Assembly (NCBI GenBank): GCA_024698225.1
Contig: JAILRK010000192.1
Coordinates: forward strand, 1 to 36,740
DNA length: 36,740 bases
Reading direction: 5' to 3'
Source of the DNA: Oscillospiraceae bacterium
GTDB lineage: Bacteria > Bacillota > Clostridia > Oscillospirales > Oscillospiraceae
The position numbers and the translations under genes were made by a program. Positions within the stretch are counted from its first letter, which is position 1, and each line of letters starts with the position of its first letter. Shown piece after piece: positions 1,906 through 18,545 of the stretch. Below the pieces are notes generated by a model, which saw nothing but the letters and a program-made list of their open reading frames with translations, ran no database searches and was not told where the DNA came from.

Positions 1906-3129
1906 TTACATGTTCACCTTGTGATAGACCTTCTTGCCCTTTTTGAGCATGATGCCATTCGTGGCGAGGCGGTCCTTGTCATAGCGCTCGTCGATGCCGG
2001 AGACCTTGACGTCGTCCACGGTGACGCCGCCCTGCTGCACGAGGCGGCGGGCCTCGCCGCGCGACGCGCAGAGTCCGGTTTTGACCAGCACGCTGAGGAT
2101 GTCGATGCTGCCGTCGCTGAGGTCGGCGTCGCTGAGCGTCGTGCTCGGCACGTTGTCCATGCTGCCGCCGCCGCCGAAGAGCGCGCGGGCGCTCTGCTGC
2201 GCCTTCTCCGCCTCCTCCTCGCCGTGGACGAGCTTGGTGAGCTCGTAGGCAAGAATCTCCTTGGCACGGTTGAGCTCGCTGCCCTCCCACTTGTCCATCT
2301 CGTCAATCTGCTCGAGCGGGAGGAAGGTCAGCATGCGGATGCACTTGAGCACGTCCGCGTCGCCGACGTTGCGCCAGTACTGGTAGAACTCGTAGGGGCT
2401 GGTCTTGTTCGGGTCCAGCCACACCGCGCCGCTGGCGGTCTTGCCCATCTTCTTGCCCTCACTGTTGAGCAGCAGCGTGATGGTCATGGCGTAGGCGTCC
2501 TTGTCGAGCTTGCGGCGAATCAGCTCCGTGCCCGCCAGCATGTTCGACCACTGGTCGTTGCCGCCGAACTGCATGTTGCAGCCCACCGTCTGGAACATGT
2601 GGTAGAAGTCGTAGGCCTGCATAATCATGTAGTTGAACTCGAGGAAGGACAGGCCCTTTTCCATGCGCTGCTTGTAGCACTCGGCGCGCAGCATGTTGTT
2701 CACCGAGAAGCAGGCGCCCACCTCGCGCAGCAACTCGACGTAGTTGAGGTCCAACAGCCAGTCGGCGTTGTTGAGCATCATCGCCTTGTCGGGTCCGAAC
2801 TCGATGAACTTCTCCATCTGGCGCTTGAAGCACTCGGCGTTGTGGTTGATGTCCTCTTTGGTCAGCATCTTGCGCATGTCCGTGCGCCCCGAGGGGTCGC
2901 CAATCATGGTCGTGCCGCCGCCGATGAGGGCGATGGGCTTGTTGCCCGCCATCTGCAGGCGCTTCATCAGGCACAGCGCCATGAAGTGCCCGACGTGCAG
3001 GCTGTCCGCCGTGCAGTCGAAGCCGATGTAGAACGTCGCCTTGCCGTTGTTGACCAGCTCGCGGATTTCATCCTCGTCCGTCACCTGCGCCAGCAGACCG
3101 CGCGCCTTCAGCTCTTCGTAGATTTGCAT
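1906..3129 (-). CDS. tyrS: Tyrosyl-tRNA synthetase
   Basis: Class I aaRS motif HVGH, GGGTTMIGDPSGR, KMGKT loop, C-terminal S4-like domain; T-box leader upstream. Confidence 0.97.
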   Translation of the reverse strand: MQIYEELKARGLLAQVTDEDEIRELVNNGKATFYIGFDCTADSLHVGHFMALCLMKRLQMAGNKPIALIGGGTTMIGDPSGRTDMRKMLTKEDINHNAECFKRQMEKFIEFGPDKAMMLNNADWLLDLNYVELLREVGACFSVNNMLRAECYKQRMEKGLSFLEFNYMIMQAYDFYHMFQTVGCNMQFGGNDQWSNMLAGTELIRRKLDKDAYAMTITLLLNSEGKKMGKTASGAVWLDPNKTSPYEFYQYWRNVGDADVLKCIRMLTFLPLEQIDEMDKWEGSELNRAKEILAYELTKLVHGEEEAEKAQQSARALFGGGGSMDNVPSTTLSDADLSDGSIDILSVLVKTGLCASRGEARRLVQQGGVTVDDVKVSGIDERYDKDRLATNGIMLKKGKKVYHKVNM

Positions 3130-3154
3130 CCGTCTTTCTCCTTTTTCTTATGTG

Positions 3155-3436
3155 TGGGACAGAAAAAGCCCTCTGTCCCCTTGTGTTTGGGACAGAGGGC
3201 GATTGCATCGCGGTACCACCTCTGGTTCGCTGTCTCCTCGCGTAAGACAGCCTCACGGAGTGCCGTTACACTCCTGCGCGATAACGGGCGCAACCGGAAT
3301 ACGCCTACTGGGCAGTTGCCGTTCGGGTATCAGCTCCGCGGTGTATTTCACCGGCCGCCCTCTCCCCTTTCCACCGTCCAGGGGCTCTCTTGGCAGGGCG
3401 CGTCCGCCTACTTCTCCGCTTCCTCGCTGTAACGGG
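3155..3436 (-). ncRNA. T-box leader (tyrosine-type) upstream of tyrS
   Basis: T-box GGTGGTACCGCG on the minus strand (3209-3220); possible TAC specifier in GAAATACACCGCGG; followed by an intrinsic terminator. Confidence 0.92.
3161..3200 (-). terminator. T-box-controlled terminator of the tyrS leader
   Basis: GCCCTCTGTCCC...GGGACAGAGGGC followed by TTTTT on the minus strand. Confidence 0.9.
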
Positions 3437-3439
3437 CAC

Positions 3440-3468
3440 ATTATAGCCGTGCCGTGCGGATTTGTCAA
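3440..3468 (-). promoter_or_regulatory. tyrS leader promoter
   Basis: Consensus TTGACA-N17-TATAAT on the minus strand. Confidence 0.9.
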
Positions 3469-4409
3469 GCCTCGGTTTGATACCGGGCGGCAAGGCGGCT
3501 CAGCCCGTTTTTGAGCAGCGTCAGGTGCTCCTCGTCAATCTCCGTGGCACGAAGCGGACGGATGAGCCTGCCGAAGCCCTTGACCTTGTCGCAGGCGCAG
3601 ATGGCGACGGCGTGGCGGAAGGCGCGGTTGTCGGAGGGATAGTACACCAGCCCGTCGGTTTTGAGGAAGGCGGTGGTGTGCGTGCCGTTTTCAAAGCTCT
3701 CAAGGATGGCGTCAAGCAGTTCGCCGTCCCAGCGGCTGTTCTTGTTCGGCAGAATCAGCAGCTCGTCGCCCTCGGCGACGCAGTTCACATTGATAACGGG
3801 TGTTTCCCGCAGCGCGGGGCAGTCCTTCCGCAGGGCCTTTGCCCCGCTCATGCCGCTGAAGCCGCCGTCCAGAAAGGCAAACGCCACCTCGCCGCGGTAG
3901 CGCGGGGTCAGCGCGGCGGCGGTTTCAAGCAGGGCGGCAACGCCGGAGCTGTTGTCGTTGGTGTTGCGCGTCTCGGCGGGGCCGAAGCGCAGGTACAGCA
4001 GCGCCGAGAGCAGCAGCAGGAGAAACAGCGGCAGCGTCCAGTGCGGGGCGTTGACGGCAAAGGTCAGCGCGAAGGAGAGCACAACGCTGCCCAGCATCAC
4101 CAGCACGGGCGTCAGCGCCAGATACAAAAACGCCGTCATGGGGCGCGTGGGCATGATGAGCGGCGGAAGCAGGGATTTGAGCGGCGTGTCGTAGTGGGCG
4201 ACGAACACCAGCTTTGCCGTCTCCGGGTCGCCCGCGACCACGTTGGTCACGTGTCCCCCGATGCGCAGCGCCGTCTCCCGGCTCTGCAGCTTGGGCGCGT
4301 AGCCCAGCTCGCGCAGCGTGCCCATCAGATAGAGGCGGAACGCCTCTTTTTCCTTCGGCTTGAAGCGCAGGGGGTATTCCCGCGCAATGCGCTCGGCAAA
4401 TCGGCTCAT
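3465..4409 (-). CDS. M28-like membrane protein, probably with a degenerate catalytic site
   Basis: VFVAHYDTPL and NDNSSGVAALLE resemble M28 metal-ligand regions; two hydrophobic segments; the usual Glu-Glu motif is absent. Confidence 0.7.
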   Translation of the reverse strand: MSRFAERIAREYPLRFKPKEKEAFRLYLMGTLRELGYAPKLQSRETALRIGGHVTNVVAGDPETAKLVFVAHYDTPLKSLLPPLIMPTRPMTAFLYLALTPVLVMLGSVVLSFALTFAVNAPHWTLPLFLLLLLSALLYLRFGPAETRNTNDNSSGVAALLETAAALTPRYRGEVAFAFLDGGFSGMSGAKALRKDCPALRETPVINVNCVAEGDELLILPNKNSRWDGELLDAILESFENGTHTTAFLKTDGLVYYPSDNRAFRHAVAICACDKVKGFGRLIRPLRATEIDEEHLTLLKNGLSRLAARYQTEA

Positions 4410-6103
4410 GCTCTCCCCCCTGTCAGCTTTGTTTTGAAGGCGTCCGCCGCGTCCAGCAGTTCCTCTGCGCCGCGGAGCATCGTGTCGCTCGGGTGCTCGC
4501 CGCCGGTGAGGCGCGCCAGCTCCCGTGCGCGCGCGCTGCGGTCCAGTTCCGTCACCCGCGTCAGGGTGCGTCCGCCCTCTTCGCCCTTTTCCACGGAGAA
4601 ATGCGTGTCCGCCATCGCCGCAAGCTGCGGCAGATGCGTCACGCAGAGCACCTGCTTTTCACGGGACACGCGGGCGAGCTTTTCCGCCACGCGCTGTGCC
4701 GCGCGTCCGGACACGCCGGTGTCCACCTCGTCAAAGACCATGGTCATCACGCTGTCCTGCGCGGCGAACACGTTTTTCATCGCCAGCATGATGCGCGCCA
4801 GCTCGCCGCCGGAGGCGATTTTGTGAATGGGCTTGGGCGCCTCGCCCACGTTGGCGGACATGAGAAAGCGCACCTCGTCCATGCCGCTTGCGTCCGGCTC
4901 CTTTTCCGCAAAGTCGATGGTGAAGCGGACCTTGGGCATGTCCAGCTCCCGCAGCTCGCGCAGAATCTCGGCCTCGAGCGTCTGCGCCGCCGCCTTGCGC
5001 GCCGCGGACAGCGCGCGCGCCGCTTCAGCCACGCCCGCCTTCTGCTGCGCCAGCTTCGCCTCCAGCTGCGCGATGCGGTCGTCCGCGTATTCGATGCGGT
5101 CCAGCTCGTCCTTTGAGCGGGCGAGGTAGTCCAGCATCTCGCGCACGGAGCCGCCGTATTTTTTCCGGAGCCGATAGAGCAGGTCGCTGCGCGCTTCCAC
5201 CTCGTCCAGCTCCGCGGGCGAGAAGTCAAAGTCCTCCCGCTTGTCACGCAGGGTGACGGACAGGTCATAGGCCTCGCTGTAGAGCGCCTCCAGCCGGTCG
5301 GAGAGCGCGATGAATTCCTCCCCCAGACCGCGAAGGCCGCGCAGGGCGTCATGCGCCTGACGGATGGCGGAGACCGCGCCGCTGCCCTCGTCTCCGCCGT
5401 TGAGGCAGTAGTCCGCCTCCGTGACGGCGTCGATGAACTTCTCGGCGTTGCGCAGGATGTTTCTCCGCTGCGCAAGCGTCTCCTCCTCGCCCTCCTTCAG
5501 CTCCGCGCGCTCCAGCTCCGCAATCTGGTGACGCAGCGTGTCCACCCGGCGCGCTTTCTCCGTCTCGTCCATGCGCAGCGCGTCGATGGCGCGGCGCGTG
5601 GCGTTCAGGGCGGAAAACTGCGCGCCGTAGCGCTCCAGCTGCGCGTCCATGTGCGCGTAGCGGTCCAGGTAGCTCAGGTGCTGCGTCTCGTCCAGCAGCG
5701 CCGTACCGTCGTGCTGACCGTGGATGTTCAGCAGCTGCGCACCGACGGCGCGCAACTGCGAAACCGTAATCGGACGCCCGTTGGCGCGGCAGACGGTGCG
5801 TCCGTCGCCGCTGAGCTCGCGCTGGAGCAGCAGCGTGCCGTCCTCCTCGATGGAGATGCCGTTTTCCGCAAGCGCGGGCAGGTCGCCGTCCACGCCGTCA
5901 AAAGCGGCGCTGACCAGCGCTTTGGGCGCGCCGCTGCGAATCAGGTCGCGCGAGGTGCGCTGACCCAGCACCGCGCCCAGCGCATCGATGACGATGGACT
6001 TGCCGGCGCCGGTCTCGCCGGTGAGGGCATTGAAGCCGCGCGCGAACAGAATGTCCGCGCGCTCGATGATGGCGATGTTCTCAATGTGCAGTAATTGCAG
6101 CAT
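4406..6103 (-). CDS. recN: DNA repair protein RecN
   Basis: MLQLLHIENIAIIERADILF, Walker A GETGAGKS, KIASGGELARIMLAMK signature, VFDEVDTGVSGRAAQ. Confidence 0.96.
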   Translation of the reverse strand: MLQLLHIENIAIIERADILFARGFNALTGETGAGKSIVIDALGAVLGQRTSRDLIRSGAPKALVSAAFDGVDGDLPALAENGISIEEDGTLLLQRELSGDGRTVCRANGRPITVSQLRAVGAQLLNIHGQHDGTALLDETQHLSYLDRYAHMDAQLERYGAQFSALNATRRAIDALRMDETEKARRVDTLRHQIAELERAELKEGEEETLAQRRNILRNAEKFIDAVTEADYCLNGGDEGSGAVSAIRQAHDALRGLRGLGEEFIALSDRLEALYSEAYDLSVTLRDKREDFDFSPAELDEVEARSDLLYRLRKKYGGSVREMLDYLARSKDELDRIEYADDRIAQLEAKLAQQKAGVAEAARALSAARKAAAQTLEAEILRELRELDMPKVRFTIDFAEKEPDASGMDEVRFLMSANVGEAPKPIHKIASGGELARIMLAMKNVFAAQDSVMTMVFDEVDTGVSGRAAQRVAEKLARVSREKQVLCVTHLPQLAAMADTHFSVEKGEEGGRTLTRVTELDRSARARELARLTGGEHPSDTMLRGAEELLDAADAFKTKLTGGRA

Positions 6104-6109
6104 AGTTCT

Positions 6110-6574
6110 TCACTTCTGAAATTTATTTTGCATTTCATGGATTTCCAGGCAGAATTCCGCCGCGCTGTCCTCATCGCGCATGATGACCAGCACCGTGTCG
6201 TCACCGGCAATGGTGCCGAGCATCTGCGCGATGTCCATCCCGTCAAAGGCGGCGCCGGCCGCCCCGGCAAGGCCCGGCATGGTCTTGAGCACGACGAGGT
6301 TGCGCGCATAGTCCACGCCGATGATGCTCTCGCGCAGAATCGTCTGCAGGCGGTCGGCAAAGTTGAGGCGGGTCTTGTGCGCGGAGACGGCGTAGCGGTA
6401 GCGCCCGCCGCCGGCAGGCTCCTTGATGAGGTGAAGCTGCTTGATGTCGCGCGAGACCGTTGCCTGCGTGCTGTGGATGCCGCGCTGACGCAGACGCTCA
6501 ATGAGCTGCTCCTGCGTCTCGACGCTCTCTTCGGCAATGATGGACAGGATTGCATTCTGTCTGTCATTCTTCAT
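6110..6574 (-). CDS. argR: Arginine repressor
   Basis: N-terminal winged helix (ATVSRDIKQLHLIK) and C-terminal oligomerisation domain (GTIAGDDTVLVIMRDE); recN neighbour. Confidence 0.95.
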   Translation of the reverse strand: MKNDRQNAILSIIAEESVETQEQLIERLRQRGIHSTQATVSRDIKQLHLIKEPAGGGRYRYAVSAHKTRLNFADRLQTILRESIIGVDYARNLVVLKTMPGLAGAAGAAFDGMDIAQMLGTIAGDDTVLVIMRDEDSAAEFCLEIHEMQNKFQK

Positions 6575-7445
6575 GATTCAGCAGTCCTCCAAGCATTTTT
6601 CGCTGCAGCACCTCGCAGAAGCTGCGGTTTTCCAGACGCACCAGCTTGGTGTCATACCGTGAGCGCGTAATCTCCACGGCGTCGCCATGGCGCAGAGAGA
6701 ACGCGCGCCCGCCGTCCACCGACAGCACCACCGGCTTGTAGCCCGTCGCCTCGGTCTGCACCGTGATGGTGCGCTCCGGGGCGAGCACGTAGGCGTTGGC
6801 GTGCACGCTGTGCGCGCAGATGGGACTGACGACGAAATTGCGCGCGGTCGGCTCCACCACGGGCCCGCCCGCGCTGAGCGAGTACGCCGTGGAGCCCGTG
6901 GGGCTTGCCACGACCACGCCGTCGCCCGCAATGTCCACCAGCTTGCCGCTTTCGGTGTAGATGTGCAGGCGGATGACGCGGGAGACGTTGCCGCGGGCAA
7001 TGAGCGCCTCGTTGAGGCCGAGGCTCGAGTAGATGATGCGCCCGTCGCGCTTTACGACGACGTCGAGCATCATGCGGCTTTCAATGGTGTATTTCCCCGC
7101 GCAGAGATTCTTGAGCTTGTGCAGTTCCTTCAGCTCCAGCTCCGCCATGAAGCCGAGGCTTCCGAGATTGACGCCCAGCACGGGGATGTCCTTGTGCGCA
7201 GCGGTTTTGGACAGGTGCAGAATCGTGCCGTCGCCGCCGAAGGAGACGAGCATGTCCGCGCCGCGCAGCTCCTGCTGCAGCGGACGGATTTCCAGCCCGT
7301 AACCCTCCGGCTCCTCGTTGCCGCGGAAGGGAATGCACACGACGTTGGGACAGTTTGCCTCGTCCAGAATTGCCTTGGCCTGCTTTACCACCCGCAGCTC
7401 CTTATCGCGGTAGGGGTTGGGGCAGAGTATCACTTTTTTCAGCAT
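6564..7445 (-). CDS. nadK: NAD kinase
   Basis: GGDGTILH; GDGVVVASPTGSTAYSLSAGGPVV. Confidence 0.95.
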   Translation of the reverse strand: MLKKVILCPNPYRDKELRVVKQAKAILDEANCPNVVCIPFRGNEEPEGYGLEIRPLQQELRGADMLVSFGGDGTILHLSKTAAHKDIPVLGVNLGSLGFMAELELKELHKLKNLCAGKYTIESRMMLDVVVKRDGRIIYSSLGLNEALIARGNVSRVIRLHIYTESGKLVDIAGDGVVVASPTGSTAYSLSAGGPVVEPTARNFVVSPICAHSVHANAYVLAPERTITVQTEATGYKPVVLSVDGGRAFSLRHGDAVEITRSRYDTKLVRLENRSFCEVLQRKMLGGLLNHEE

Positions 7446-7457
7446 GGCGCTTACCTC

Positions 7458-8258
7458 TTATGTGTCCAGCTCTGCATGGGAGTCCGCCACCAGCGCAGCA
7501 AGGTCAAACACGCGCTCGGTGACGGCGCCCTTTTCCAGATAGCCGAGATATTCAATGTTGCCCTCCGGGCCGCGGATGGGCGAGTAGGTCAGGTCCAGCA
7601 CGCCGAAGCCGCTGTCGGACGCGTGGCTCAGAAACTGTGCCAGCACCTCCCGGTGCACCGCCGGGTCGCGCACGACGCCCTTTTTGCCGACCTTTTCGCG
7701 CCCTGCCTCAAACTGCGGCTTCACAAGACAGGCGACGTGTCCGCCCTGCCGCAGCAGCGTGTGCACGGCGGGCAGAATCAGCGAAAGCGAGATGAACGAG
7801 ACGTCGATGGACGCAAAATCCAGCTCGTCCGGGATTTGCTCATGCGTGAGGTAGCGGGCGTTCGTGCGCTCCATGCACACTACGCGCGCATCGCTGCGCA
7901 GCCGCCAGTCCAGCTGACCGTAGCCCACGTCCACGGCGTAGACCTTTGCCGCGCCGTTTTGCAGCATGCAGTCGGTGAACCCGCCGGTGGAAGCGCCGAT
8001 GTCGGCGCAGAGACAGCCGTCGAGCGTCAGTCCAAAGCTGTGCATCGCCTTTTCCAGCTTCAGTCCCCCGCGGCTGACGTAGCGCAGCGCGCTGCCGCGC
8101 ACCTCAACCTTCGCGTCTGCGGGCACGCCGAAGCCCGCCTTGTCCACCTTCCGGTCGTTGACGTAGACGATGCCGCTCATGATGATGGCAAGCGCCTTCT
8201 GCCGCGTCTCTGCCAGGCCATGCTCGACCAGATAGACGTCCAATCTCTGCTTCGTCAT
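7458..8258 (-). CDS. tlyA: TlyA-family rRNA methyltransferase (S4 + FtsJ-like)
   Basis: S4 domain (RLDVYLVEHGLAETRQKA) and ADIGASTGGFTDCMLQNGA. Confidence 0.94.
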   Translation of the reverse strand: MTKQRLDVYLVEHGLAETRQKALAIIMSGIVYVNDRKVDKAGFGVPADAKVEVRGSALRYVSRGGLKLEKAMHSFGLTLDGCLCADIGASTGGFTDCMLQNGAAKVYAVDVGYGQLDWRLRSDARVVCMERTNARYLTHEQIPDELDFASIDVSFISLSLILPAVHTLLRQGGHVACLVKPQFEAGREKVGKKGVVRDPAVHREVLAQFLSHASDSGFGVLDLTYSPIRGPEGNIEYLGYLEKGAVTERVFDLAALVADSHAELDT

Positions 8259-10105
8259 GCGCGCACCACCTCCAGCGCTGTCTCCGCGATGGACGCGGCG
8301 TCAATATGGAACGCCGCACGCAGCTGCTTTGTGCTGCCGTGGGGCGGAAACTGCTTGCCGAGGTTGCACAGGTGCAACCGCTCAAGCGGGGTGCCTTCTT
8401 CGGTCAGTATGGCGGCAAGCCGCTGGCCGACACAGCCGACGCTGGCGCACTCCTCCGCGACGACCAGTTTTTTCGTCCCGGCAAAGGTGCGCCGCACGTC
8501 CCGGTCAAGGAAGGGCGAGATGCAGTTGACCTTGACGACGCGTGCCGAAACGCCCTGTGCAGCAAGCAGCTCCGCCGCGTCGAGCACGGGGGAAATCATG
8601 GTGCCGTAGGCACAGAGGGTCACGTCGTTACCCGCGCGCAACTCGGCAAAGACGCCTTCGCTGCGGTCCTCGTGGTAGCGCTCCTCGCCGCCGCGGGGAT
8701 AGCGGATTGCCACGGGACCGTCCATTTCCAGGACGGCACGGCGCAGCATGCTGCGCAGCTCCGCAAAGCTTGCCGGGCAGAGCACCGTCATGTTGGGGAT
8801 ATCGGACAAAAACGTGGCGTCGAAGATGCCGTGGTGGGTTTCACCGTCCGCGCCGACCAGACCGGCGCGGTCCACGGCAAACACGGTGTGCAGGTTCAGC
8901 AGCGCCGTGTCGTGAATGAGCTGGTCATAGGCGCGCTGCAAAAACGTGGAATACACGGCGAACACCGGCACAAGCCCCTGCTTCGCCATGCCCGCCGCCA
9001 TTGCCGCCGCCTGCGACTCCGCAATGCCAACGTCGAAAAAACGCTTCGGAAAGCGCTCGGCAAAGTCTGCGAGGCCCGTGCCGTCGCACATGGCGGCGGT
9101 GATGGCGCACACGCGCCGGTCCTCCCCGGCGAGGCGGCAGAGCTCCGCGCCGAAGACCGAGGCGAAGTTCTCCCCGCTGCCCTTGCACACGCCGCTGTCC
9201 ACGTCGAACGGACCGACGCCGTGCCAACGGTTCGGCTCGCGCTCCGCAGGCGGATAGCCCTTGCCCTTGACCGTGCGCACGTGCAGCAGCACCGGGCAGT
9301 TGAGCTCCCTTGCCCAGCGCAACGTCTCCTCCAGCTGTGCCTCGTCGTGACCGTCCACGGGCCCGAGATAGGTGAAGCCCATGTCCTCAAACAGCGAGGC
9401 GCTGGGCAGCACCGCATCCTTCACGCTGTTTTTGATGCTGTGGTTGAGCGTATACAGCGCGCGTCCCGCCTTGGTTGCGCGCAGGACGCGCCGGTAGGCT
9501 TTTTTGAAGGCATAGTAGCCGGGCTTGTTGCGCAGCTTGGACAGATGCGCGGATATCGCGCCGACGTTGCGGGAGATGGACATGCCGTTGTCGTTGAGGA
9601 CAACAATCATCGGCTCGCCCGATGCGCCCGCGTTGTTCAGCCCCTCGTAGGCAAGGCCGCCGGAGAGCGCGCCGTCTCCGATGAGGGCAAGCACCGCATA
9701 GTCCTCCCCCAGCAGGCTGCGCGCGCGCGCCATGCCCAGCGCCACGGACACGGAGTTGGAGGCGTGCCCGGCAATGAAGGCATCGTGCACGCTCTCGTTC
9801 GGCTTGGGAAAGCCGGACAGTCCGTTGTACTGACGCAGCGTCGGAAACTGCGCCGTGCGTCCCGTGAGCGCCTTGTGCGCATAGCACTGATGACCTACGT
9901 CAAAAACAAGGCGGTCCCGCGACGTGTCGAACACGCGATGAATTGCCACGGTAAGCTCCACAGCGCCGAGGTTGGAGGCGAGATGTCCCCCTGTCTTCGC
10001 GACGCTGTGGAGCAAAAAGCTGTGTAATTCATCACATAGATGCTTCGTTTGCTCTCCCGAGAGCGCCTTGACATCCTCCGGCGTGTGGATTTGCTCTAAA
10101 ATCAA
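8255..10105 (-). CDS. dxs: 1-deoxy-D-xylulose-5-phosphate synthase
   Basis: DXS motifs (HLASNLGAVELTVAIHRVFD, DVGHQCYAHK, IGDGALSGGLAYEGLNNAG). TTG at 10105 with GAGGTG upstream preferred over the track start at 10174, which overlaps the upstream gene. Confidence 0.95.
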   Translation of the reverse strand: MILEQIHTPEDVKALSGEQTKHLCDELHSFLLHSVAKTGGHLASNLGAVELTVAIHRVFDTSRDRLVFDVGHQCYAHKALTGRTAQFPTLRQYNGLSGFPKPNESVHDAFIAGHASNSVSVALGMARARSLLGEDYAVLALIGDGALSGGLAYEGLNNAGASGEPMIVVLNDNGMSISRNVGAISAHLSKLRNKPGYYAFKKAYRRVLRATKAGRALYTLNHSIKNSVKDAVLPSASLFEDMGFTYLGPVDGHDEAQLEETLRWARELNCPVLLHVRTVKGKGYPPAEREPNRWHGVGPFDVDSGVCKGSGENFASVFGAELCRLAGEDRRVCAITAAMCDGTGLADFAERFPKRFFDVGIAESQAAAMAAGMAKQGLVPVFAVYSTFLQRAYDQLIHDTALLNLHTVFAVDRAGLVGADGETHHGIFDATFLSDIPNMTVLCPASFAELRSMLRRAVLEMDGPVAIRYPRGGEERYHEDRSEGVFAELRAGNDVTLCAYGTMISPVLDAAELLAAQGVSARVVKVNCISPFLDRDVRRTFAGTKKLVVAEECASVGCVGQRLAAILTEEGTPLERLHLCNLGKQFPPHGSTKQLRAAFHIDAASIAETALEVVRA

Positions 10106-10118
10106 AGTGACACCTCTT

Positions 10119-10667
10119 TTATTTTCGTCCGATGTGGAATACGCGCAGCACCTTGGCCGCATGGTATACGACATTCTTGCTGCGTGTCATTGCAATCCGC
10201 TTGCCAATCGCCTTGCCGCCGATGGTCACGCCTGAAATCAGCGCCGTCACCGCAATGGAAATCAGAATGCTGCGGGTGTTGAACCCCGCCTGCAGCTTCG
10301 CCACAATGACTGCGGCGGTGGTGCCGCTGACGATGCCGCAGATGTCGCCCACCACGTCATTGCAGAAGCTCGACACCTTCTCGGCGTTGCGAATGAGATA
10401 CAACGCCTCCTTCGCGCCCTTCTCCCTGTGCGACGCCATGGAATGAAACGGTTTGGCGTCCGCCGCAGTCACGGCGACGCCGATGACGTCGAACACAATG
10501 CCAAGGAAAATGAACGCCAGCAGCACGCAGACCGCCAGCGGATAGCCCGCGTCCTCCAGCGCAACGCCGGAGGCGAGACTCAGCGCCGCGGACAGCACCA
10601 CGGAGAGAAGAAAAATGCGCAGAACCCAAGGGGCATAACTTCGCGGCTTTGCCTCTTCTTTTTTCAT
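10119..10667 (-). CDS. oapA: Small multi-TM membrane protein, OapA-like (OLE-associated protein A)
   Basis: Starts MKKEEAKPRSYAPW; several hydrophobic helices; lies directly between the candidate OLE RNA and dxs, the expected OapA position. Confidence 0.75.
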   Translation of the reverse strand: MKKEEAKPRSYAPWVLRIFLLSVVLSAALSLASGVALEDAGYPLAVCVLLAFIFLGIVFDVIGVAVTAADAKPFHSMASHREKGAKEALYLIRNAEKVSSFCNDVVGDICGIVSGTTAAVIVAKLQAGFNTRSILISIAVTALISGVTIGGKAIGKRIAMTRSKNVVYHAAKVLRVFHIGRK

Positions 10668-10729
10668 ATGACCTCTCAAAACGACCGCCCGAAGGCGGCA
10701 GAATAACAGCAAAAAACTGAAGAGCGGCG

Positions 10730-11380
10730 GCAGAATAGAGTAATCCTACGGCTTTGGTCGGGTTGGCTTTCCCCGCGGTCCGCCTCCCGTTGCCGGTCAG
10801 GTGGTTCCCCTTTAAGGACCGTGCCGCGCCGTTGCCAACGCGCGATACCCGATTGCCACTTAGTCCGCACTGTAACCCCTACTCTGCCCCAAACGGACAG
10901 CCTAGGCGATTTCCGCCGCAGTCAAACCGTCTCTTAGCCTCTTTTGCAACGGCGGTTTCACGGAGCAATCGCCCTATCCCCTGGCCGGGGGATTTGGTTG
11001 TGTTCTCCGATTCGTCGCCGCCACGCAAGGCAGGCTACTCCGCGCACAGCGTTCACGGCGCTCGGGCCGGGTAGCACCGCAACGCGGGTTCTTAGCCCGC
11101 TCCGTACCAAGGTCGCTTACCAACAAGGGGAGTACGCCTGGCACGAGGGCGGGTCTCCACGGAAACAGGGTCGCGACCCCCATGCCATTAGGGGACGCCC
11201 GGAATCCGCAGGCTCCGCTTCTTCCGAGTTCGAAAGGCATAGCCTCCCTTCAGCACCCACCCCAAACTGGGCGTAAGCAGCAGGCACCAAAGGTTTCATA
11301 GTTGTGCCCTTTAAAGGATTTTTAGGCCCTTCTTAGGAGACGGCAGATCTGACTAGGATACTGCGCCGCTGTTCAGTTAT
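10730..11380 (-). ncRNA. Candidate OLE (ornate, large, extremophilic) RNA
   Basis: About 650 nt non-coding stretch with many short complementary segments, its own consensus-like promoter, and oapA-like, dxs, tlyA, argR and recN genes downstream. Boundaries approximate. Confidence 0.83.
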
Positions 11381-11385
11381 CGCTT

Positions 11386-11562: not shown

Positions 11563-12153
11563 TCATTCCGGCTGCTCGCCGCGGTGCTTTGCCTTGCAGA
11601 TGAGCTGCGTCATGCTGCCCATCGGGCAGAAGCTGCACCAGGTCCGCGGGCGGTAGAGCGCCATCACGATGAGGCCGATGAGTGTGGAGGTCAGCATCAG
11701 GCTGTAGAAGCCGAAGCTGAACTGCGCGACCCAATCCGCTGTCGTGCCGGCGGTATACGCCCAGCCCCAGGGCACGCGGAAGGTCCAGAACAGCTTCACG
11801 ACCTCCCGCAGCGACGACGCCCCGGCATAGACCAGGTAGGTCTGATGCACGATGTTGGCGAACATCGTGAGGAAGAACAGCAAAAACCCGTAGCGGAACC
11901 ACTTCGACGACAGCCACGCGGGCGCGGGCTTCCCGCGCGAGCACTTCAGAGCGCGCGGCAGGACGGTGAACAACTGTCCCCTGCCGCAGAGGTGATTGCA
12001 GAAGAATTTGTCGCCGCCGAAGAGCGCCAGAAGCAGCGGCAGCAGAAAGTCAATCATGCCCAGCCAGGCAAACAGAATGTTGAAAAAGCCCAGCGTGAAG
12101 TAGAGAATGGACCAAATCCAGAGATAGTCGTACCATTTTTTGCTCTTTTTCAT
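11563..12153 (-). CDS. NapH/NosR-like membrane 4Fe-4S protein
   Basis: Several TM helices; CNHLCGRGQ and CSFCPMGSMTQLIC cysteine motifs; ATG at 12153 (MKKSKKWYDYLW) overlaps the ferredoxin stop. Confidence 0.85.
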   Translation of the reverse strand: MKKSKKWYDYLWIWSILYFTLGFFNILFAWLGMIDFLLPLLLALFGGDKFFCNHLCGRGQLFTVLPRALKCSRGKPAPAWLSSKWFRYGFLLFFLTMFANIVHQTYLVYAGASSLREVVKLFWTFRVPWGWAYTAGTTADWVAQFSFGFYSLMLTSTLIGLIVMALYRPRTWCSFCPMGSMTQLICKAKHRGEQPE

Positions 12154-12356
12154 GCGTCCGCCTCCCTCAGCTTCATGTCGATGCAGTCGGCAGGACATGC
12201 TTTTTTGCATTTTCCGCAGCCGATGCAGCGCAGTGGGTCGACAAGGGCGAAGCAGCCCTTCCAGACCCGAATCGCGTCCCTGGGACACTCGTGGGTGCAG
12301 GCCCCGCAGGAGACGCAGCGCGTGCGCGCGACCTGCGCATAGAATTTAGATGCCAT
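12150..12356 (-). CDS. 2x[4Fe-4S] ferredoxin
   Basis: CVSCGACTHECP and CIGCGKCKKACP. Confidence 0.95.
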   Translation of the reverse strand: MASKFYAQVARTRCVSCGACTHECPRDAIRVWKGCFALVDPLRCIGCGKCKKACPADCIDMKLREADA

Positions 12357-12427: not shown

Positions 12428-13216
12428 TCAGCCGTAGGAATGCAGACCGGGCATGAGCATGTTGACGCCCGCAAAGGTGAACAGCACCACCGGCACGGCG
12501 ATGATGGCATACCACGCCATCTTCACGCCGCTGCGCTTTGCGCGCAGCCGCAGGTGCAGATACACCGCATAGAGAATCCAGGTGATGAGCGCCCAGACCT
12601 CCTTCGGGTCCCAGGTCCAGAACGACGACCACGCCTGCTCCGCCCAGATGGCGCCGGTGAGGATGGTCACCGTCAGCAGGAGGAAGCCCAGCGCGATGAG
12701 CCGATACGCCAGGTAGTCCATCTGGTGGAGCTTCAGCTCGTCCGTGTCCTGCCGTCCGGACAGGACGACGTAGCGAAGCCCCGCGCCGCCTGCGAGCATG
12801 AACGACGAGTATGAGAACACCGCCGAGCCGATGTGGAACGCGAACCAGGACGAGCGCAGCGCGGGCATCAGCTCCGTGATTTCCATGGGCTGCAGCGCGG
12901 CATACGACAGGACGAGGAAGGCCATCGGCATTACCGCCACGGACAGCCACTCGGCGCGGTAACGCAGGCGCGCCACGCAGAGCATCACAGAGATGCCCCA
13001 GGAAAAGGCGGCGGAAAACTCGAACTGGTTGCTCAGCGGCAGGCGGTGCGCCGCAAGCCCGCGGAGCACGAGAAAGACCGTGTGCGCGGCAAGACCGGCG
13101 AGAAACAGCGCCCACGCCAGCCTGCCAAGCGCCTCGCGCTTGAAGACCGACGCGGCAAACTGCAGCACGGAGGCGGCGAAGTAGACAATCAAAATCCCAA
13201 AAAACAATGCGTTCAT
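12428..13216 (-). CDS. ccsA: Cytochrome c biogenesis protein CcsA/ResC
   Basis: WTWDPKEVWALITWILYAVYLHLR signature; multi-TM; adjacent resB. Confidence 0.93.
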   Translation of the reverse strand: MNALFFGILIVYFAASVLQFAASVFKREALGRLAWALFLAGLAAHTVFLVLRGLAAHRLPLSNQFEFSAAFSWGISVMLCVARLRYRAEWLSVAVMPMAFLVLSYAALQPMEITELMPALRSSWFAFHIGSAVFSYSSFMLAGGAGLRYVVLSGRQDTDELKLHQMDYLAYRLIALGFLLLTVTILTGAIWAEQAWSSFWTWDPKEVWALITWILYAVYLHLRLRAKRSGVKMAWYAIIAVPVVLFTFAGVNMLMPGLHSYG

Positions 13217-14460
13217 TCCTGTTTCTCCTTGTCCTTATTGTTCAGCAGCAGCGCAAGCTCCATGCGCATGCCCTCCGGCTTCGGTCCGCCGACGGCGTAA
13301 CCCGCGGCGTCGGTCCGGACGAGAACGGGCTGCATGAAAAACGTGACGTACAGCCCGACGGTCATCAGCACGAACGCCGCAATCAGCAGCGCGTTGATGA
13401 GCGTGGGCGTGCGCTTGATGCGAAGGCCCGGGTACTCAATCGGGTCGTTGAAGCGGAACGTGAGCCCCCCCACCTGCACCGTGTCGCCCGGAAACGCCAG
13501 CGTCGGCGTATAGACGCCGTCGGAGGCGACCTGAACGCGATACACAGGGTCGTCATAGCTGCCCGTCGTGTTGGTGATGAGCGTCACGTTGCCGCTGGGG
13601 TCCTTGATGTAGCCGGGAAACAGCGCCTCATACCAGACGCCGTTGCGCCCGTCGGCGGAGAGGAAGACCGGCTCGGTCAGCGTGAAATCGTCCGCGCCGC
13701 CCTCGGCGTTCGTCACGGTCAGCGAGCCCGCCGTGCCGTAGGTCTGCTGGTAGACCTTGTACGCGCCGAAGCTTGCGGGCTCGTTGACGCTCACGCGCCG
13801 GCTGCCGCTCATCCTCCCGTCGCTGAGGAGAATGCGCAGCTCACTGGCATAGTCCAGCCGGCCGTTCTCATCCTCAATGGAAAAGGCGTCCACCGAAATC
13901 ACCGTGCCGTCCGGCATGGTCAGCGACTCGCCGGGAAGGCAGGTCCGGTCGGTGACGGTGGGCAGATACAGCGCCGCCGCGCCCAGAAGCACCGTGAGCA
14001 GGATGGACAGATGCGTGATGAAGGTGCCCCAGCGTCCGAAGCCGTTCTTGTGCCAGACGGTCACGCCGCCGTCAAGGTGTTCCGCCTTACATCGTTTGGA
14101 AACCAGATAGGCGCGCAGCCGTTCTGACTCCTCGGGGGAGGTCTCCGCCTCGTTGGGCAGTTGCGCGGCGGCTGCAACGGCGTTCCGTCCGCCGCGCGCC
14201 ACGACGCGCACGCGCACGACGGAGCAGAGCGTCAGGTTGAGACACAGCAGGGCGAGCAGCAGCGCGAAGTACCAACTGGAAAACACATGGTGCAGCCCGA
14301 GCATCAGCACGATGCCGTGGGCGGCACGGTACGTCTGCGCGTAATACGCGACCTCCCTGCCCTGCGGAATCAGCGTGCCGACCACGGAGAACGCCGCAAT
14401 CAGTCCGAGCAGAATCAGCCCGAAGCGCATGGAGCGCAGGAACTGCCAGATTTTTTTCAT
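13213..14460 (-). CDS. resB: Cytochrome c biogenesis protein ResB
   Basis: MRFGLILLGLIAAFSVVGTLIPQG start, ResB-like TM/periplasmic pattern, overlap with ccsA. Confidence 0.92.
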   Translation of the reverse strand: MKKIWQFLRSMRFGLILLGLIAAFSVVGTLIPQGREVAYYAQTYRAAHGIVLMLGLHHVFSSWYFALLLALLCLNLTLCSVVRVRVVARGGRNAVAAAAQLPNEAETSPEESERLRAYLVSKRCKAEHLDGGVTVWHKNGFGRWGTFITHLSILLTVLLGAAALYLPTVTDRTCLPGESLTMPDGTVISVDAFSIEDENGRLDYASELRILLSDGRMSGSRRVSVNEPASFGAYKVYQQTYGTAGSLTVTNAEGGADDFTLTEPVFLSADGRNGVWYEALFPGYIKDPSGNVTLITNTTGSYDDPVYRVQVASDGVYTPTLAFPGDTVQVGGLTFRFNDPIEYPGLRIKRTPTLINALLIAAFVLMTVGLYVTFFMQPVLVRTDAAGYAVGGPKPEGMRMELALLLNNKDKEKQE

Positions 14461-14527: not shown

Positions 14528-16702
14528 TCAGGATTGCGTTTTGAACAGCAGCATTGCCTGGTTGCACAGTGCCTCTGCCTTGTCCAGGCACTCGTGCGTC
14601 AGCGCCGGGTTGTGCGCGCCCTCGGCGTTCTCCACGAACACGAAGTCCCAGTAGAACTGCGCGTCGCGGGCGATGGCGCGGATGGCGTTGAGCTCGTCCT
14701 CGGTATACGCACCGCTCGCAACCGCCGCGGCAAGGCGCTCGGTGAGGTACTGCAGCTCGTAGCCGATGGCGTAGGTGCGGCGCTCTGCCTCCTCCTGCAC
14801 CGCGTGCACCTCGGAGACGAGATCCGCATGGCACTGGGCGCAGTTGTTGGCAATCAGCTCCGGGTCATCGAGCGGGCTGACGAGGTTGTGGCTGGGATAG
14901 GTCGTGCCGTCCGCCCGCGTTGCCTCGGGCATGTGGCAGTCGGCGCAGGTGAAGGTGTCGCGGTGCGGGCTGCCCTCGAGCAGGAAGGTTTCTATCTCAG
15001 GGTGCTGGACCTTAATCTGGCGCACACCGGTGCGCGGGTTCGTCCAGTCCGCAAAAGGCTGCCCGTCGACCATCAGGTTGTTAAAGAAGTCAAGGATGGC
15101 GTCCGGATGCATGGATTCGATGCTGTTGTGTCCGATTTTCGCCGCCTTGGTGACGGGGTCGAAGTAGTACTCGTTGTGGCACTGACCGCAGGCAAGCGTC
15201 GCCGCATCGATTTTGTCAAAGTCGTCGCCGACGGAGTCGGTGAGGTAGGTGTGCGTCACAACCACGGTGCCGGGGGTGTTGGCGTGGCAGTTGTAGCAAC
15301 TGATGCCCTCGTTGATCTGCTGCTGCACGTCCTCAAACGCCAGACGGTACGCCTCGTCGCCCATCTCGTTGACCATGTTGGTGAACTGCGGGGTCTTGCA
15401 GGTGAAGCAGTTGGCGAGCGCGTGGGGGCGTCCGGTTTCCAGCAGGTCGTCCACGTCGTAGTAGTGACCGCGGGCGCTGGAATAGGAGATGGCGAAGCCG
15501 TAGCCCTCGTAGAGGGTGCGCAGCATCGGATAATCCTCGAGATAGTCGGTGACCTCGTCGCTCTCGCGGGTCTGCATCCAGCTTTCGTAGATTTCGGGAT
15601 ACTCGTCCTGCCAGTCGGCGGCGGTCATGACGACGACGCCGGAGTGCGTCTGCACCTTTTCCGCCACGGCGTTGACCTTGATGACGGCGTGCTCCACCGC
15701 TTCGACGGAGGCGACGGCGCCCTCATACAGCGGCGCGATGTCATAGGCCTTGCTCTCGTCGAGATAGGGCTTCGCCGCCTCAACGGCGCGCAGCACACAG
15801 GTGGTCACCGCATCGCAGCTAATGGTCGCGCCGGACACGGCGTCCACCCCGCCGTCAATCTGCGCGGCGTCCTTGCCGAGGAACTGGAAGAGGAAGTAAT
15901 CCTGTTCAATCAGGTCGCCCTTGCCGGGGGTCTCCTGATGCTTGGCGGGGTCGATGTAGATGCCGGCGACCTGTCCGCTGTGCGCGACGCCAACCTGCAC
16001 CTGAATGTCGCCGTTGCGGCCCTTGCCGGTGACATAGACCACCGCGCCGGCGTCAGAGGTGTAGAGCTCGTCCACGCCCTCGGGCGCGGGGCTGACCGCT
16101 TCCTTCGTCGTCGCGCCGGGCAGCACGCCGCCGAACTGCGTGTCCTCCGGAAGGTCAAGCTCCGGCGAGGGCGAGACCAGCTTCTGCAGGAAGTAGCCGG
16201 AGCTGTTCACCGCAGAAACAACGGAGGCGGAGCTGATGGTCGCGCCGGACACGGCGTCCACCGTCTCCTTGAGCTTCAGCGGCACGGCGAGACCGGCAAA
16301 CTGGTCAAGGAAGGCGGGCTCCTGCACGCGCGAGCCGAGACCCGGCGTCTCTTTGAACTTCTGCCCGCCGGGCTGCACGGCAAGGATATTGCCCTCGAGG
16401 TCAAAGCCCGTGAGCACCTCGACGGGGCCCTGGCAGCCGGTGACCGTCAGTTGTGTGACGTAGCCAATCAGCTCGCCGTTGCTGTAGGCCTCGTAGCAGG
16501 CGTCCACGCTGCTGTCCTCGCCCAGCTCGACGCTGCGGAATTCGTCGGCCGCGGCAAAGACCGCCTGGCGGTCACGCACCGCCTGACGCTCTGCGTTCTC
16601 GGCAATTCTGTCGCGCGTCATCAGGTCCACCCCGCCAAGCAATGCGGCGACGATGACGCCGATGAGCGTCAGAACCAGCCAGGAGGGTAGCTTGTTTTTC
16701 AT
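14528..16702 (-). CDS. nrfA: Fusion: N-terminal TM anchor, two FMN-binding (RnfG/NqrC-type) domains and a pentaheme NrfA nitrite reductase domain
   Basis: DAVSGATIS motif twice; heme motifs CFTCK, CYNCH, CGQCH, CADCH, CAQCH; NrfA-like ARGHYY, CGQCHNEYYF, KVQHPEIET, CADCHMPEA. Confidence 0.93.
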   Translation of the reverse strand: MKNKLPSWLVLTLIGVIVAALLGGVDLMTRDRIAENAERQAVRDRQAVFAAADEFRSVELGEDSSVDACYEAYSNGELIGYVTQLTVTGCQGPVEVLTGFDLEGNILAVQPGGQKFKETPGLGSRVQEPAFLDQFAGLAVPLKLKETVDAVSGATISSASVVSAVNSSGYFLQKLVSPSPELDLPEDTQFGGVLPGATTKEAVSPAPEGVDELYTSDAGAVVYVTGKGRNGDIQVQVGVAHSGQVAGIYIDPAKHQETPGKGDLIEQDYFLFQFLGKDAAQIDGGVDAVSGATISCDAVTTCVLRAVEAAKPYLDESKAYDIAPLYEGAVASVEAVEHAVIKVNAVAEKVQTHSGVVVMTAADWQDEYPEIYESWMQTRESDEVTDYLEDYPMLRTLYEGYGFAISYSSARGHYYDVDDLLETGRPHALANCFTCKTPQFTNMVNEMGDEAYRLAFEDVQQQINEGISCYNCHANTPGTVVVTHTYLTDSVGDDFDKIDAATLACGQCHNEYYFDPVTKAAKIGHNSIESMHPDAILDFFNNLMVDGQPFADWTNPRTGVRQIKVQHPEIETFLLEGSPHRDTFTCADCHMPEATRADGTTYPSHNLVSPLDDPELIANNCAQCHADLVSEVHAVQEEAERRTYAIGYELQYLTERLAAAVASGAYTEDELNAIRAIARDAQFYWDFVFVENAEGAHNPALTHECLDKAEALCNQAMLLFKTQS

Positions 16703-16766: not shown

Positions 16767-16795
16767 ATCATAGCATACCCGTTTGCTTCTTGCAA
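16767..16795 (-). promoter_or_regulatory. Putative promoter of the nrfA-fusion operon
   Basis: TTGCAA-N17-TATGAT on the minus strand. Confidence 0.65.
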
Positions 16796-18314: not shown

Positions 18315-18365
18315 GGTCAGGTCAAAAGAGACGACGGCGCAGCGCAGAGACGCCGTGTCGAATCG

Positions 18366-18545
18366 TCAATTTCTCTGTCCTTTTGCCTGAGAGATTCACG
18401 CCTGCGCGCTTTCACCTTCGGCACCCGCGGTGCGGGCTTCTCCAGAGTCACATCCACGCACAGTCCTCTCCCCTTTCGGGTCGCCTGAGAGTTTCGCTCC
18501 TTCGGCAAGCCGTATGCTTCGGCTTTTTCCTGTGCGCTTCATCTG
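18366..18545 (-). ncRNA. Tandem glycine riboswitch
   Basis: Two aptamer-like units on the minus strand: GCCGAAGGAGCGAAACTCTCAGGCGACCCGAAAGGGGAGAGGACTG and GGTGCCGAAGGTGAAAGCGCGCAGGCGTGAATCTCTCAGGCAAAAGGACAGAGAA. Confidence 0.95.

Follow-up and report, generated by a model that had tools for sequence, protein, structure and literature searches.

NrfA is a main route from nitrite to ammonium, and the enzyme usually receives its electrons from quinol through NrfH or NrfBCD. A gene of an Oscillospiraceae bacterium, located on the window of 36,740 nucleotides analysed here (contig JAILRK010000192.1 of assembly GCA_024698225.1), encodes an NrfA domain that is preceded, on the same polypeptide chain, by two flavin-binding domains, raising the question of whether such a fusion is genuine and, if so, how it would receive its electrons. 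The initial annotation had described a 724-aa open reading frame with an N-terminal transmembrane anchor, two DAVSGATIS motifs and five heme motifs, all of which were found as described. The gene and its parts are as follows.

14528–16702, minus strand: FMN_bind-FMN_bind-NrfA fusion gene, 724 aa (Pfam, NCBIfam RnfG model, PDB sequence matches)
16616–16684, minus strand: N-terminal membrane helix, about aa 7–29, an RnfG-like anchor (hydropathy and structure model)
16202–16438, minus strand: core of FMN_bind domain 1 (E 6.4e-12), with the predicted flavinylated Thr155 at codon 16238–16240
15782–16021, minus strand: core of FMN_bind domain 2 (E 1.2e-15), with the predicted flavinylated Thr293 at codon 15824–15826
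14549–15619, minus strand: NrfA pentaheme catalytic domain, aa 362–718 (Pfam Cytochrom_C552, PDB sequence matches, fold match to 1gu6)
15395–15409, minus strand: CFTCK, the catalytic heme-1 site with Lys436 (motif and alignment)
16767–16795, minus strand: sigma-70-like promoter, TTGCAA-17-TATGAT with TG (consensus match only)

The frame starts with ATG and is uninterrupted, with zero internal stops. It encodes, in this order, an N-terminal membrane helix, two FMN_bind domains of the RnfG/NqrC type and the NrfA domain. In the scan with Pfam models, which had been proposed as a check, both families were found: FMN_bind matched twice (E 5.9e-28 for the whole protein) and Cytochrom_C552 once (aa 362–718, E 3.4e-71, 240.9 bits versus a curated cut-off of 24.1). 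The NCBIfam RnfG model TIGR01947 reached 133.8 bits (cut-off 102) over the first flavin domain and the membrane helix, and a sequence search against solved structures assigned aa 8–171 to RnfG and aa 364–717 to NrfA. The RnfG-like domain with its membrane helix, marked by a hydropathy peak at aa 9–27, is thus the N-terminal flavin domain, and the second flavin domain is a repeat of its soluble part. The sequence DAVSGAT occupies positions 149–155 and 287–293, and the heme motifs follow as CFTCK, CYNCH, CGQCH, CADCH and CAQCH, i.e. one CXXCK and four CXXCH. Chance cannot account for these domains and motifs, given their E-values and their conservation in relatives.

An AlphaFold2 model of the protein, built from a 67-row alignment, has a mean pLDDT of 85.2; its pTM of 0.58 leaves the interdomain geometry uncertain, and flexible linkers are predicted at positions 181–188 and 325–338 (pLDDT < 50). 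The anchor forms a helix from residue 7 to 48 in the model. The best PDB match found by Foldseek is NrfA of E. coli (1gu6; E 1.3e-20, target TM 0.74), while the N-terminus matches the RnfG structures of C. tetanomorphum (7zc6, target TM 0.70) and A. woodii (9eri, target TM 0.67).

Concerns that the domain might lack NrfA catalytic residues were dispelled by alignment. R106, K126, Y216 and H264 of E. coli NrfA correspond to R425, K436, Y512 and H567 of the fusion protein, and the E. coli calcium ligands E215, K261 and Q263 to E511, K564 and Q566; all of these residues of the fusion protein recur unchanged in 82 of 82 aligned relatives. Of the distal histidines, H413, H605 and H697 share their columns with those of E. 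coli NrfA, and H580, near-invariant among the relatives, lies one column off E. coli H275. Their roles in catalysis, calcium binding and heme ligation we take to be those of NrfA enzymes in general. The NCBIfam equivalog models of ammonia-forming NrfA did not reach their cut-offs (PRK11125, 192.1 versus 595; TIGR03152, a model of type "exception", 163.1 versus 692.5). Since these models are narrow, the scores argue against orthology with the modelled enzymes, but not against the NrfA fold or chemistry.

One scan of genome contigs yielded 258 stretches encoding relatives, 80 loci of which were kept; those with a source in the title are mostly rumen or gut Clostridia MAGs. The survey of fused architectures called for by the initial annotation recovered the same two-flavin fusion in five other, independent MAGs (loci L012–L015 and L049) and one-flavin versions, which are frequent among Oscillospiraceae of the rumen and gut, in about 50. 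The 83 tree rows (E. coli excluded) comprise six proteins with two flavin domains, 50 with one and 27 with none, a few of the latter beginning at a contig end. A sample of 401 genomes of the family gave matches in 35, mostly over the NrfA domain and in four over the flavin part only; in a sample of the order outside the family, only flavin domains were matched. The congener at locus L016 possesses a form of 605 aa, shortened by an internal deletion, whose single flavin domain is a hybrid. Closely related pairs of two-flavin fusions show dN/dS values of 0.05–0.10 when the entire frame is compared; the value is about 0.25 each between the fusion studied here and locus L122 (flavin half) and L016 (NrfA half). 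The fusion is a real, conserved enzyme architecture. In four further loci (L031, L032, L036, L043), genes for FMN_bind-containing proteins of 640–680 aa precede the nrfA fusion by about 2 kb; in L031, the one examined, the protein carries a FAD_binding_2 domain of the fumarate/urocanate-reductase type.

In L012–L015 and L049, the two-flavin gene is followed in tandem by a second, stand-alone nrfA. In the tree of NrfA domains, the fusion of the window clusters with L016; the L012-type two-flavin proteins stand apart from both and pair with their respective tandem copies. A single origin of the two-flavin form was rejected on the NrfA domain (AU test, p 6.8e-05), a result that recombination between tandem copies could mimic; accordingly, either the flavin module and NrfA were united on at least two occasions, or the NrfA part was replaced. 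As known NrfA enzymes are dimeric, the tandem copies might form a heterodimer. A match of any kind to the fusion protein occurs in only three of 18 genomes of the genus, and the block tyrS-recN-argR-nadK-tlyA-dxs continues in congeners devoid of the nrf cluster, which is a patchy accessory trait in this genus. Contamination was rejected as a source of the contig, because its recN is 70–85% identical to that of congeners, and no PHROG match suggested a relation to phages.

The threonine of the flavinylation motif is kept in seven of seven rows for domain 1. For domain 2, GAT is kept in 46 of 48 rows and replaced by GAS in another; in the last one, L073, the aligned stretch is probably no flavin domain. 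The claim of a flavin-bearing NrfA on the outer face of the membrane gained support from the domain models, active-site conservation, fold comparison and comparative genomics; as to the expected flavin transferase ApbE, none was found in the assembly that contains the fusion (89% complete, 281 contigs). Taken literally, this is an outcome that the initial annotation had named as a refutation, although here it comes from an incomplete assembly. ApbE was detected in 16 of 17 congeners, in five of five two-flavin and 22 of 24 one-flavin genomes, and also in 18 of 20 genomes with a flavin-free NrfA. The only congener in which ApbE was not detected (G401, 78% complete) is the other carrier of the fusion, so that the lack of a detected ApbE in both fusion-bearing congeners is a loose end. 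A motif search of the flanks of the fetched relatives did not reveal apbE genes. Congener G407 contains the flavin half alone, as a 332-aa double-flavin protein (74% identity) whose gene immediately follows the 3' end of an apbE gene, which ties the flavin module to its expected transferase. The genome under study moreover has a separate rnf operon on contig C270, whose ordinary RnfG carries DAISGAT and therefore should need ApbE as well.

Another contig of this genome, C91 (L126), encodes a 1511-aa protein (2802–7337, minus strand) that combines two FMN_bind domains with a subtilase domain and SLH repeats; judging from its sequence, it would be a flavinylated cell-wall protease, an unusual combination. 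Divergent from it, a gene for a second FMN_bind protein (7635–9176, plus strand) is followed by an [FeFe] hydrogenase-like gene.

Downstream of the fusion gene, four genes follow in the order given, the last two of which end the operon.

13213–14460, minus strand: ResB-like cytochrome c maturation protein, System II (Pfam ResB, E 1.2e-43)
12428–13216, minus strand: CcsA/CcsB-type heme lyase subunit (TIGR03144, 227.6 bits, cut-off 187.6)
12150–12356, minus strand: 68-aa ferredoxin with two [4Fe-4S] clusters (Pfam Fer4, E 5.7e-14, frame checked)
11563–12153, minus strand: 196-aa NapH-like membrane Fe-S protein, Fer4_5 (Pfam PF12801, E 7.2e-10, over cut-off, frame checked)

The genes resB and ccsA follow nrfA at nearly every relative locus whose contig extends far enough; in G401 (L016/L121), resB appears to be broken into two short frames of 166 and 60 aa. 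Neither a NapH-like homologue nor the ferredoxin was found beside nrfA at the fetched relatives' loci, which makes the case for these two proteins as electron donors a weak one. A PF12801 Fe-S membrane protein encoded beside an FMN_bind protein fits the definition of a NapH-like flavinylation system given by Meheust et al. 2021 (PMC8238504). Just downstream of the cluster, an OLE RNA (RF01071, 388 bits) extends from 10708 to 11385 on the minus strand, next to a gene (10119–10712) for a 197-aa membrane protein with a weak CNNM match, which may be the OLE-associated protein. An ordinary glycine riboswitch (18365–18455, minus strand, 59.6 bits) precedes the gene of an AgcS amino-acid symporter.

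NrfH/NapC (PF03264) was not found in the genome of the fusion and was absent from 50 of 51 genomes tested, the remaining one (G805) giving two weak partial matches. As relatives with a stand-alone NrfA likewise lack NrfH, a fused flavin domain is not strictly needed to replace it. From these data we infer, with a probability of roughly two in three, that the fusion protein is a membrane-tethered, extracytoplasmic nitrite (N-oxide) reductase which operates independently of NrfH by flavin-to-heme transfer; the loading of its cofactors, the electron path, the donor and the substrate are deduced from homology and gene context. ApbE would attach FMN to the predicted sites Thr155 and Thr293; attachment of the five hemes would fall to the ResB/CcsA lyase of the adjacent genes. 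Electrons might cross the membrane by an Fe-S/flavin route, most likely via the neighbouring ferredoxin and NapH-like protein or via an Rnf complex, then hop from the first to the second FMN and on to the heme chain of NrfA, where nitrite would be reduced to ammonium at the CXXCK heme. The flavin module would thereby take over the job done elsewhere by NrfH or NrfBCD. Nitrite is the likeliest substrate because the active site is complete, and since no molybdopterin nitrate reductase (Nar/Nap) was found in the genome assembly, nitrite would come from outside.

The same enzyme may, with a substantial but somewhat less than even chance, serve not in respiration but in nitrosative-stress defence, detoxifying nitrite, NO or hydroxylamine alongside Hcp under the control of a CRP/FNR-type regulator. 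All five tandem two-flavin loci contain a gene for Hcp close to the fusion: in L012, L013 and L049 it lies immediately upstream, and in L014 and L015 it follows the cluster at a distance of 3–5 kb. CRP-like regulator genes adjoin many relatives; both kinds of neighbour fit the handling of nitrite, NO or hydroxylamine. The missing Nar/Nap and the scattered occurrence within the genus point in the same direction. However, Hcp was not found in the assembly of the fusion itself, the membrane anchor and the dedicated flavin wiring suit sustained electron flow, and an rnf-nrfA operon of a relative points to energy coupling.

This operon, present in two MAGs (L065 and L069) that are nearly identical where they overlap, consists of an rnfD::rnfG fusion, rnfE, rnfA and rnfB running directly into nrfA; rnfC is found in L065 only, where the operon spans 2885–9131 and is continued by resB and ccsA. 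By analogy, it suggests a possible route from Rnf to NrfA akin to that of MmcA, the Rnf-linked multiheme cytochrome of Methanosarcina (PMC11024163). Extended to the fusion protein, this precedent would cast it as a paralogue of RnfG, docked to the Rnf complex, with ferredoxin oxidation directly driving nitrite reduction, and the score of the N-terminal domain in the RnfG model and its RnfG-type fold agree with such a role. Nevertheless, we regard docking as rather unlikely: rnf genes were found neither beside the fusion of the window nor beside any other two-flavin fusion, the genome has an rnf operon with an rnfG of its own, and the nrfA of L065 is not fused to a flavin domain.

NrfA-type enzymes have side activities, and the NrfA part might use another acceptor such as sulfite, with the flavin domains passing electrons elsewhere, to extracellular flavin, metal or other acceptors. 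The connection of multi-flavinylated proteins with redox work at the Gram-positive cell wall, as drawn in PMC8238504, would agree with this, but the complete nitrite-reductase active site and the nitrosative-stress neighbours in relatives render it improbable. That a flavoprotein gene and an nrfA gene were joined artificially in assembly or annotation, as the division of the MAG into 281 contigs and the solitary flavin half of G407 might suggest, and as had been considered at the outset, can be dismissed, given the intact frame, the shortened form in L016, the placement of the contig in the genus by recN, the recurrence of the fusion in five independent MAGs, the existence of some 50 one-flavin versions, and the dN/dS values of 0.05–0.10 along whole two-flavin fusions.

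What we infer for the fusion is an NrfH-independent reductase that would bind FMN covalently, be loaded with hemes, relay electrons and reduce nitrite. More tentatively, and with odds that we consider distinctly unfavourable, gut and rumen Oscillospiraceae might possess a quinol-independent pathway from nitrite to ammonium, in which covalent flavins, loaded by ferredoxin via Rnf or a NapH-like Fe-S protein, feed NrfA directly, and the oxidation of ferredoxin by nitrite might be coupled to ion pumping. A family of NrfA enzymes supplied by covalent flavins of the same chain would explain nitrite reduction by clostridial gut bacteria that lack NrfH, give the rumen a further sink for reductant in competition with methanogenesis, and provide a single-chain enzyme for the study of flavin-to-heme transfer. 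With about 50 one-flavin relatives at hand, this idea can be tested across many genomes.

With the NrfA cytochrome c nitrite reductases of E. coli, Shewanella and Desulfovibrio (NrfHA), the fusion protein shares the pentaheme arrangement, the CXXCK motif of heme 1, the active-site Arg, Tyr and His, the calcium ligands, the distal histidines and the fold. It differs from known NrfA proteins by its membrane anchor and two flavin domains in one chain and by the lack of NrfH or NrfBCD; it also lacks the final ~70 residues present in E. coli NrfA, and sequence identity to 1gu6 is about 27%. With RnfG/NqrC it has in common the membrane helix, the FMN_bind fold, the [ST]GAT flavinylation motif and a score above the RnfG cut-off, whereas its flavin domain is doubled, joined to a terminal reductase and encoded outside any rnf operon. 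MmcA of Methanosarcina acetivorans likewise connects a multiheme cytochrome c with a flavin system of the Rnf type and parallels the L065 operon, but it is a separate heptaheme archaeal protein and not a nitrite reductase.

In flavinylated terminal reductases (FMN_bind joined to a fumarate-reductase type enzyme; NosR/PceC of the NapH-like type), a covalent flavin domain also feeds an extracytosolic reductase, and a NapH-like Fe-S membrane protein close by is a further likeness. What sets the fusion apart is its catalytic unit, a pentaheme NrfA to which the flavin domains are joined directly. The 2021 flavinylation survey (Meheust et al., eLife 66878) describes multi-flavinylated proteins, clusters of the NapH-like type that include NirS and, in Christensenellales, some multi-flavinylated RnfG proteins that bear a multiheme domain. 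The latter resemble the fusion in combining several FMN_bind domains and a multiheme cytochrome in one chain; they differ in being RnfG proteins of Rnf clusters from another taxon, with a multiheme domain that the main text does not name NrfA. Among the texts of open-access papers, none describing FMN-NrfA fusions was found. The fusion of flavin domains with NrfA represents a widespread, apparently undescribed architecture, and a variant of the flavinylated extracytosolic reductases.
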